A DNA stretch of 64,000 nt from Rubrivirga marina (GTDB taxonomy: Bacteria > Bacteroidota > Rhodothermia > Rhodothermales > Rubricoccaceae). The position numbers and the translations under genes were made by a program. Location of the stretch: the NCBI RefSeq assembly GCF_002283365.1, contig NZ_MQWD01000001.1:2010944-2074943 (forward strand), written 5' to 3'. Below the pieces are notes generated by a model. The model saw only the letters and a program-made list of their open reading frames with translations, searched no databases and had not been told where the DNA came from. Positions 40,193-46,958 of the stretch are shown here, piece after piece. Position 1 is the first letter of the stretch, and each line of letters begins with the position of its first letter.

Positions 40193-40804
40193 ATGTTCAC
40201 CGGCATCATCGAAGAGGTCGGCACGCTCGCCGACGTCACCCCGCTCCGAGGCGGGCGCCGCCTCCGCATCGCCTGTTCGTTCGCCGACGCGCTCCGCGTT
40301 GACGAGAGCGTGGCGGTCGACGGCGTGTGCCTGACCGTCGTGGCGCAGGACGGCGATGCGTTCGAGGCCGTCGCCGTCGAGGAGACGCTGTCCAAGACCG
40401 CCCTCGGCGACCGCGAGGCCGGCGATGGCGTCAACCTGGAACGCGCGATGGTGTTGGGCGCGCGGCTCGACGGCCACCTCGTCCAGGGCCACGTCGACGC
40501 GACCGGGACCGTCGACTCGGTCGAGGCGCTGGCCGACTCGCACCTCGTCCGGATCCGCTACCCGGACGCCGATGCGGCGTATCTCATCCCGCGCGGGAGC
40601 ATCTGCGTCGACGGCATCTCGCTGACCGTCGCCCGCCTCGACGAGCCGGAGGGCACGTTCGCCCTCGCGATCATCCCGCACACGTGGGACAAGACGACGG
40701 CCGGCCAGTGGCGCAAGGGCGAGCGCGTCAACCTGGAGTTCGACCTCGTCGGCAAGTACGTGCTGCGGGCGCAGGGCGTGGGCGCGACGAATCGTCATCG
40801 GTGA
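40193..40804 (+). CDS. ribE: Riboflavin synthase, alpha chain
   Basis: 203 residues starting with the family signature MFTGIIEEVG. It consists of two homologous lumazine-binding barrels (residues ~1-96 and ~97-195), with VDGVCLTVV in the first, GHLVQGHVDATGTV at the junction and VDGISLTV in the second, then the C-terminal helix EFDLVGKYVLR. It dismutates two 6,7-dimethyl-8-ribityllumazine molecules to riboflavin. It is cytoplasmic and acts as a homotrimer. It lies 99 bp after the flavoprotein gene. A short hairpin (CCCC AGT GGGG, ~40806) follows the stop. Confidence 0.96.
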   Translation: MFTGIIEEVGTLADVTPLRGGRRLRIACSFADALRVDESVAVDGVCLTVVAQDGDAFEAVAVEETLSKTALGDREAGDGVNLERAMVLGARLDGHLVQGHVDATGTVDSVEALADSHLVRIRYPDADAAYLIPRGSICVDGISLTVARLDEPEGTFALAIIPHTWDKTTAGQWRKGERVNLEFDLVGKYVLRAQGVGATNRHR

Positions 40805-40867: not shown

Positions 40868-40907
40868 GACTGTCAGACAGACTCCCAAGGTGGCGGGCAG
40901 TCTGTCA
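40868..40907. promoter_or_regulatory. Dyad elements upstream of the sigma-54 promoter (possible activator site)
   Basis: CTGTC-A-GACAG at 40870-40880, and an 8-bp inverted pair GACAGACT (40876-40883) / AGTCTGTC (40900-40907). The cluster ends 13 bp before the -24 element. It could be bound by a sigma-54 activator dimer, although it lies closer than usual for such sites. Confidence 0.45.
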
Positions 40908-40920
40908 GTCGTGCCCGCGC

Positions 40921-40936
40921 TGGCACGGCGCGTGCA
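40921..40936 (+). promoter_or_regulatory. Near-consensus sigma-54 (-24/-12) promoter
   Basis: TGGCACGGCGCGTGCA: the -24 element TGGCACG is exact, and the -12 element GTGCA differs from TTGCA at one base. The GG (40922-40923) and GC (40934-40935) are at the required 11-bp register. Predicted transcription start is near 40947. It is the only such site noticed in the window. A sigma-54 activator gene lies 4 kb downstream. Confidence 0.6.
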
Positions 40937-40968
40937 AAGGTTCGGAGCACACCACGCCCCCTGGCACC

Positions 40969-41073
40969 GTGACTGCCCTCTCCATTCCCGCCCGTCTCGT
41001 CTCGACCCCGCACGCCCTCATCGTCCGCCTCGGTGCGGTCTCCGCTGCTCTCCTCGGCGTCGCCCTGTTTTAG
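40969..41073 (+). CDS. Possible 34-residue hydrophobic peptide in the sigma-54 unit
   Basis: GTG start ~22 bp after the predicted sigma-54 start site. The product is MTALSIPARLVSTPHALIVR followed by LGAVSAALLGVALF and TAG. The C-terminal half could form one membrane helix. It is very short, with no homologue known to me, and it may be chance; the transcript could equally be a small RNA. Apart from the elements listed here, the 40805-41306 gap shows no other gene. Confidence 0.3.
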   Translation: MTALSIPARLVSTPHALIVRLGAVSAALLGVALF

Positions 41074-41179
41074 ACCGAAGAACTGAACGTCGAGCGCCGG
41101 AGCCCATCGGCTCGCCCCGCCCTTCACCCCAGAGCCAGCCCTCCTCTCTTCTCAGGGCCCTCTCCGCACGCTCGATTCC

Positions 41180-41227
41180 CCGCCGCCCCGCCTGGCCCCG
41201 TAAGGCCTGCGGGGCGGCGGTTTGTTT
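41180..41227 (+). terminator. Rho-independent terminator ending the sigma-54 unit
   Basis: A perfect 12-bp stem CCGCCGCCCCGC / GCGGGGCGGCGG (41180-41191 with 41209-41220) with a 17-base loop that itself contains GGCC/GGCC, followed by TTTGTTT. It ends a transcript of about 280 nt from the sigma-54 promoter and insulates miaB. Confidence 0.85.
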
Positions 41228-41276
41228 GGGAGGCATCTCCACCGAAGCCTAGCCCGGGGCCGGGGCCCGGCGGGCG

Positions 41277-41283
41277 TAGCTTC
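41277..41283 (+). promoter_or_regulatory. TAnCTT promoter box (TAGCTTC) of miaB
   Basis: TAGCTTC, 23 bp before the miaB ATG and 50 bp after the preceding terminator. Confidence 0.45.
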
Positions 41284-41306: not shown

Positions 41307-42818
41307 ATGCAGCCCATCGCCGACCTCGACGTCCTCGACCTTGACCCCGAGGCGGACGCCCCCGCCCCCGTCTCGTCCGCCCCCGACGCCCGTGGGGCCG
41401 ACCAGCCCCGCGTCGTCGCGCCGCGCGCCGGCACGAACGGCCGGAGCGTCTTTATCGAGACGTACGGCTGCCAGATGAACGTGGCCGACTCCGAGCTCGT
41501 CGCCTCGATCCTCGGCGGCGAGGGCTACGCGCTGGCGGAGCGCGAGGAGGACGCCGACGTCGTCCTCATCAACACGTGCGCGATCCGCGAGAAGGCCGAG
41601 GACCGCGTGCGCGGGCGGCTCACGCACATCCGCGCTAGGAAGGAGAAGTCGCAGCCGGGCCTCCAGATCGGCGTGCTCGGGTGCATGGCCGAGCGGCTCC
41701 GGTCGAAGCTCTTGGAGCAGGAGCGGCTCGTCGACCTCGTCGTCGGGCCCGACGCGTACCGCGACCTCCCGCGGCTGCTCGCCGAGAGCCGCGACACGGG
41801 GCAGGCCGCGGTCAACGTCCAGCTCTCGCGCGAGGAGACGTACGCCGACCTCGCGCCGGTCCGCTACGACACGAACGGCGTGAGCGCGTTCGTCTCGATC
41901 ATGCGCGGGTGCGACAACATGTGCGCGTTCTGCGTCGTGCCGTTCACGCGCGGTCGCGAGCGGAGCCGGCCGGTCACGAGCATCCTGTCGGAGGTCGGCC
42001 AGCTCGTCGACGCCGGGTACAAGGAGGTCACGGTCCTCGGCCAGAACGTCAACTCGTATCGCGTGGAGCAGGACGGCTCGGCCGTCGACTTCGCCGAGTT
42101 GCTGTACCGGATCTCGCTCCTGTCGCCGGAGCTCCGGATCCGCTACTCGACGAGCCACCCGAAGGACTGCTCCGACGCGCTCCTCCACGTCCACCGCGAG
42201 CGGCCGACGGTCTGCGACTTTATCCACCTGCCCGTCCAGCACGGCAACTCGGACGTGCTCAAGCGGATGCGGCGGACCTACACGCGCGAGCACTACCTCG
42301 ACCTGGTCGAGCGCGCCCGGTCCATCGTGCCGGGCATCGCGTTCTCGACCGACCTCATCGCGGGTTTCTGCGGCGAGACGGACGCCGAGCACGCCGACAC
42401 GCTCTCGCTCATGCGCGAGGTCCAGTACGACCACGCGTTCATGTTCGCCTACTCCGAGCGGCCCGACACCTACGCCGCACGGAAGTACTCCGACGACGTA
42501 CCGGAGGCCGTCAAGAAGGCGAGGCTGACGGAGATCATCACGCTCCAGACCGAGCACTCGCTCGCCAGCAACCGCCGGCGCGTCGGGACCGAGCAGGTCG
42601 TGCTCGTGGAGGGGACTTCGAAGCGGAGCGACGACCAGCTCCGCGGGCGGACTGACACGAACCACATGGTCGTGTTCGACCGGCCGGCCGGTCTCAACAA
42701 AGGCGATTACGCCGTCGTCCGCGTCGACGACTGCACGAGCGCGACCCTCCTTGGCTCGTTCGTCCGGGCGACGACGCTGGAGGCTGAGTCCGCCCGCCTC
42801 GGTCCCGAGGCGGCGTAG
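41307..42818 (+). CDS. miaB: tRNA-2-methylthio-N6-dimethylallyladenosine synthase
   Basis: 503 residues; a ~45-residue acidic N-terminal extension precedes the core. The UPF0004 domain ([45 protein letters not shown]) holds three cluster cysteines. The radical-SAM site is [23 protein letters not shown], then GQNVNSY and [16 protein letters not shown] domain ends the protein ([24 protein letters not shown]). It methylthiolates i6A37 in tRNAs reading U-starting codons. The extreme C-terminus (SARLGPEAA) is encoded by a copy of the palindromic repeat. AGGAG lies 1 bp before the ATG, too close to be a normal ribosome site. Confidence 0.96.
42794..42813. repeat. GC palindrome family copy within the miaB 3' end
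   Basis: CCGCCTCGG-TC-CCGAGGCGG overlaps the last codons of miaB (translated ARLGPEA), 2 bp before the stop. The stop of the convergent ferredoxin gene follows 10 bp later. Confidence 0.8.
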
Positions 42819-45127: not shown

Positions 45128-46420
<1,293 letters not shown>

Positions 46421-46448
46421 GGGAGGGATCCGGGACGCGGGATGGGGG

Positions 46449-46958
46449 ATGCGGGCGGTGGTCGTCGCATCCCTCGTTGGCGCATCCCTCATCCCTCTCG
46501 CCTCGTGCGGGGTCTACTCGTTCTCCGGCGCGACCATCCCGGCTCAGCTCGAGACGGTCGCCGTGCCGCTCGCCGAGGACCGGTCGCAGGGTGGGCCACC
46601 GGGGCTCGACCGGCTCCTCACCGACGCGCTCATCGACCGGTTCGTCGACCGCTCGCGGCTCACGCTCGAGACCGACGAGGGGGAGGCCGACGCCGTCGTC
46701 CGCGCGACGATCGAGCGGTACGCCATCGCGCCGGTCGCCGTGACGGACCAGAACGTGGCCGGGCTCAACCGGGTCAGCCTCGGTGTGCGCGTGGTCGTGG
46801 AGGACCGGGTCGAGAACGAGGAGCTCCTGTCGCGGACGTTCACGGCCACGGCCGACTTCGCTCCGGCCGAGGGGCTCCAGGGCGAGGCCGACGCGTCGGC
46901 GACGGCGCTGGACCAGATCGCGCGCGACGCCTTCACGGCCGCGACCTCGGACTGGTGA
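46449..46958 (+). CDS. lptE: LptE family LPS-assembly lipoprotein
   Basis: 169 residues from MRAVVVASLVGASLIPLASC, with lipobox PLASC. It could start at an ATG at 46413 that overlaps the activator stop, adding 12 residues before a normal signal peptide, which is less likely. The mature protein begins GVYSFSGATIPAQLETVAV, the hallmark of Bacteroidota LptE, then DRLLTDALIDRFVDRSRL and LSRTFTATADFAPAEG. LptE plugs the LptD barrel and helps insert LPS in the outer membrane. A glycosyltransferase gene follows at once; there may be GTGA coupling to it. Confidence 0.88.
   Translation: MRAVVVASLVGASLIPLASCGVYSFSGATIPAQLETVAVPLAEDRSQGGPPGLDRLLTDALIDRFVDRSRLTLETDEGEADAVVRATIERYAIAPVAVTDQNVAGLNRVSLGVRVVVEDRVENEELLSRTFTATADFAPAEGLQGEADASATALDQIARDAFTAATSDW

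Follow-up and report, generated by a model that had tools for sequence, protein, structure and literature searches.

A probable sigma-54-dependent gene for a 34-residue membrane-associated micropeptide between ribE and miaB

In the enterobacterial Psp system, sigma-54 and the activator PspF drive small inner-membrane stress proteins, and PspB, PspC and PspD, which are larger than the peptide considered here, are encoded in the psp operon. Psp is an envelope stress response (PMC5596341, available part). The very small membrane proteins of Escherichia coli, YohP among them, form a class that is associated with stress responses (PMC7549839, available part), and in Bacteroidota and Planctomycetota sigma-54 promoters have been reported for chaperones, a small heat-shock protein among them (PMC12316311, available part). 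Here we describe a locus from a 64-kb window (the whole stretch of DNA analysed) that probably encodes a 34-residue membrane-associated stress micropeptide as a monocistronic unit under sigma-54 control (Table 1). The promoter, the reading frame and the upstream elements in common with hsp20 are supported by comparative sequence, and the assignment of positions 40868–41227 as a sigma-54 transcription unit is well supported.

Table 1. Features of the predicted unit and its surroundings (window coordinates).
Feature	Position	Strand	Detail
ribE, riboflavin synthase alpha chain, upstream neighbour	40193-40804	+	Pfam Lum_binding
CTGTCAG, distal putative activator element, within CTGTCAGACAG	40870-40876	+	-51 from TGGCAC start
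Inverted repeat GACAGACTCCC / GGCAGTCTGTC, putative enhancer-binding site	40876-40906	.	
CTGTCAG, proximal element	40902-40908	+	32 bp from distal one; CTGTCAG at -18 in G001
Sigma-54 promoter, -24 TGGCAC / -12 TGCA, TGGCACGGCGCGTGCA	40921-40936	+	TGGCAC-N6-TGNAA in 5/5 orthologous loci
Predicted transcription start	40947	+	Promoter geometry, 12 nt after -12 C
Micropeptide gene, 34 codons, (M/V)TALSIPARLVSTPHALIVRLGAVSAALLGVALF	40969-41073	+	GTG start
Intrinsic-type terminator: 12-bp G+C stem, 17-nt loop, then TTTGTTTG	41180-41227	+	
Separate miaB promoter-like element, TAGCTTC, -7-like	41277-41282	+	CGTAGCTTC invariant in five-genome alignment
miaB, downstream neighbour	41307-42818	+	Pfam UPF0004/Radical_SAM/TRAM
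Sigma-54 activator without receiver domain: AAA+, GAYTGA loop, Fis-type HTH; then lptE	45128-46420	+	

The promoter TGGCACGGCGCGTGCA differs from TGGCACG-N4-TTGCW at one position, and the −24/−12 match with a single mismatch and exact spacing claimed in the earlier note is thus confirmed. As the window statistics alone are unconvincing (3 matches to the promoter pattern with ≤2 mismatches inside the 64 kb, against 4.25 expected), the pattern was tested genome-wide by pattern searches. The exact TGGCAC-N6-TGCA occurs at only 4 sites in the 5 Mb genome, whereas its reversal, used as a control, occurs at 22. Each of the 4 precedes the start codon of a plausible gene by 43–71 bp, the genes being flhB (43 bp), a secreted protein (46 bp), the micropeptide ORF (48 bp) and hsp20 (71 bp). 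The site ahead of flhB, TGGCACGGACCATGCA, is a likely flagellar sigma-54 promoter, and that of the small secreted-protein gene reads TGGCACTGCGTTTGCA. The genome also carries rpoN (PF04552 match of 210 bits).

The arrangement ribE, TGGCAC-N6-TGNAA, start codon, 34–37 codons and miaB is kept in this order in five genomes from two genera of one family: the genome analysed (G000), G001 and G003 belong to one genus, and G004 and G007 to the second. Both the −24/−12 element and the promoter–ORF block are thus found in relatives, and in each of the five genomes 46–48 nt separate the start codon from the promoter start. When the five loci are aligned, the promoter shows invariant TGGCAC and TG-AA within flanking sequence that drifts. 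The −12 element is TGCA in four of the five units and TGGA in G003; in that genome TGGA replaces TGCA in the hsp20 promoter alike, which suggests a shifted sigma-54 preference in the G003 species. A sixth genome, G002, is uninformative because it is incomplete and neither flanking gene was matched. Elsewhere in the family and order, other genera lack the unit beside miaB or ribE. When 114 genomes from the order and 245 from the class were searched with profiles, the peptide was significant in those five genomes alone, once in each; a wide search at a lax E-value gave many weak matches beyond them (best 0.007), and a stricter one among the 245 class genomes gave none. The peptide has no match in Pfam or NCBIfam at E≤1, nor among PDB sequences. 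The gene has no counterpart in these family libraries; it is most likely lineage-restricted and is of a kind already known.

The 34-residue hydrophobic ORF that had been noticed inside the unit is present and begins with GTG, before which no Shine-Dalgarno sequence is visible. In two independent within-genus pairs the differences fall at codon positions 1/2/3 as 7/2/11 and 6/1/13, that is, 24 of 40 at the third position (excess, p=0.0005, binomial) and 3 of 40 at the second (deficit, p=0.0001). The pN/pS ratio is 0.37–0.52 in the ORF frame and reversed or neutral in the other frames, and the sole internal indel is one whole codon, in frame; the ORF is under purifying selection in one frame. 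Within the genus the ORF is 81% and 71% identical, compared with 62% and 57% for the leader and 67% and 49% for the 3′UTR, whereas between the genera this difference in conservation is small. The earlier note had left the product open between a small RNA and a membrane micropeptide. A sigma-54-controlled regulatory small RNA, or a dual-function RNA in which the ORF is secondary, would suit a unit of ∼281 nt that has its own promoter and terminator and sits isolated between two genes, and there are precedents for sigma-54-driven small RNAs, such as the quorum regulatory RNA (PMC10162802). Against this, the substitutions are frame-specific, the codon indel is in frame, the 3′UTR is less conserved than the ORF and, except in the closest pair, aligns with many gaps, and folding of the predicted transcript is only slightly better than that of shuffles (z = −1.38); the Rfam scan of the window gave tRNA only and no match in the unit. 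As start, frame, length and amino acids are conserved in five genomes while the 3′UTR drifts and the RNA structure is unremarkable, the micropeptide is favoured and we regard the small RNA as unlikely.

The predicted transcript of the micropeptide gene spans about 40947–41227 (281 nt), with a predicted leader of 22 nt here and of 20–22 nt across the five genomes. Of the strong U-tract terminator proposed ahead of miaB, the strong stem stands, a perfect 12 bp in which 41180–41191 pairs with 41209–41220, but the U-tract is interrupted; together with the 17-nt loop, this accounts for the terminator being uncalled by a simple terminator scan. The succession of short ORF, terminator and gene would also fit a leader-peptide attenuator of miaB, in which read-through of the terminator couples miaB to the sigma-54 promoter, and an alternative pairing of 41187–41200 with 41261–41274 exists. 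We rejected this reading as highly improbable, since miaB has its own promoter-like element, CGTAGCTTC, kept in all five genomes, G003 lacks the region needed for the alternative pairing, and the peptide, whose conservation is that of a hydrophobic protein, shows no run of regulatory codons. With an element of its own, miaB need not depend on the sigma-54 unit.

The encoded peptides are basic and hydrophobic, with a net charge of +2 to +4 and one hydrophobic stretch, and share P-x5-RL-x-A-x2-AA, of which the P-x5-RL-x-A core is invariant; in G004 the shared motif is one residue shorter. AlphaFold places a helix at residues 14–33 (20 residues, pLDDT ∼92 in the core), and the Kyte-Doolittle mean is about 2 over 15 residues. 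The strongly hydrophobic residues number only 14–19, and the stretch is broken by an invariant arginine. The peptide is accordingly predicted to be membrane-associated, and its short, arginine-interrupted hydrophobic stretch makes an interfacial helix as possible as a transmembrane one. Length, hydrophobicity, charge and a stress-type promoter would equally suit a small membrane-active toxic peptide, either type I toxin-like or depolarising in the manner of DinQ and TisB. This we consider unlikely: scans for two promoter types revealed no opposite-strand promoter-like element from which an antisense antitoxin could be made, and the gene is single-copy at a fixed locus in each genome, unlike typical multicopy type I toxins.

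The dyads described just upstream of the promoter are real (GACAGACTCCC / GGCAGTCTGTC), and with their flanking bases they contain 2 of the window's 4 CTGTCAG/CTGACAG heptamers. Paired elements of the CTGTCAG type, 32 bp apart, are found in G000 and, at nearly matching positions, in G001, whose distal counterpart is TTGTCGG at −50. The other three units differ in placement: CTGTCAG is absent near the promoter in G003, at −137 in G004, and at −125 and −7 in G007. Similar elements occur at hsp20, whose promoter in the genome analysed, TGGCACGAGGTCTGCA, is preceded by GACTGTCACAGTGACA and CTGACA. A search of nine genomes for the combined pattern TGTCR-N10-40-TGGCAC-N6-TGNAA gives three matches, two at the micropeptide units of G000 and G001 and the third at the hsp20 gene of G003; the reversed control gives one. 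Among 16 promoter matches in three genomes, CTGTCA/TGACAG lies ≤120 bp upstream in 3/3 for hsp20, 3/3 for the micropeptide gene and 0/10 for other promoters, a comparison that is suggestive and not a formal test, as it was made after the element had been seen. On this evidence the micropeptide unit is likely co-regulated with hsp20. We grade it no higher because G003 and, less clearly, G004 and G007 lack these elements at the unit or have them elsewhere; with this variable placement the regulon link is firm for two genomes only. Given the resemblance of the two control regions, the micropeptide is most likely part of the protein-folding/envelope stress response that includes hsp20, a reading that fits the chaperone report in the available part of PMC12316311.

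The hsp20 genes themselves have TGGCAC-type sigma-54-like promoters across much of the order, with a variable −12 element (TTGCA, TTGAA, TTGTA) and in many cases multiple CTGTCA/TGACAG elements (own genome and relatives; loci L020, L060, L191-L193, L195, L197-L199, L202, L206, L208-L209 and L211-L214). These promoters constitute a candidate order-wide sigma-54 heat-shock regulon.

For the activator, the earlier note had suggested the PspF-like gene at 45128 as a partner. Its architecture is indeed PspF-like, but its tie to the unit is proximity (4 kb), and it is one of eight candidates, this being the number of full sigma-54 activators in the genome (strong PF00158 matches). The regulatory elements would point instead to whichever activator controls hsp20. 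No activator gene adjoins hsp20 in the loci examined, the only one seen there being near miaB in G003. The activator gene and the directly following lptE span 45128–46958 of the window, and in G003 a receiver-less activator is also close to miaB.

For the unit as a whole we infer transcription, translation, membrane location, inducing stress and activator as follows. On stress, an enhancer-binding protein would bind the CTGTCAG dyads and open sigma-54 RNA polymerase at 40921–40936; an mRNA of ∼281 nt with a 22-nt leader would be translated from the GTG at 40969 and end at the 41180–41220 hairpin. The product, a short basic N-terminus followed by one hydrophobic helix of ∼20 residues with the invariant arginine, would be inserted in, or lie on, the inner membrane. 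More tentatively, the micropeptide may represent a new family that forms the membrane arm of a sigma-54-driven heat/protein-folding response in this bacterial family, induced together with Hsp20 and acting at the inner membrane, for example by stabilising it or through modulation of the stress sensor or of a membrane protease; this is possible, with the balance tilted against it. The locus would thus provide a 34-residue gene with evolutionary support and a predicted switch, of a size usually missed by annotation, in a bacterial group with little experimental work. It would link micropeptides with the chaperone regulon under sigma-54 that has been reported in Bacteroidota, through a predicted, testable regulon in which hsp20 and the micropeptide gene have CTGTCAG elements in common.

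Among described systems, DinQ (PMC3567139, available part) is likewise a short, single-helix, stress-induced peptide, but it is SOS-regulated and accompanied by antisense RNAs, of which none was seen at the micropeptide unit. The likeness to Psp lies in sigma-54 and an activator driving small inner-membrane stress proteins; PspB, PspC and PspD are, however, larger than the micropeptide, the unit's candidate activator is PspF-like by architecture only, and no pspA was seen adjoining the unit in its neighbourhood. In its available part, PMC12316311 describes sigma-54 control of chaperones (IbpA, GroES/GrpE) in Bacteroidota, and hsp20 here has a sigma-54-type promoter likewise. The relevant passages of that report treat annotated orthologous groups, and its text lacks the terms ‘small protein’ and ‘CTGTCA’; the micropeptide gene described here has CTGTCAG elements in common with hsp20. 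In form the micropeptide resembles YohP and similar proteins (PMC7549839, available part), which are also of about 27–35 residues and essentially one hydrophobic helix; relative to that class, to which no sequence relation was seen or expected, it is set apart by a helix broken by an invariant arginine and by a sigma-54-type promoter.
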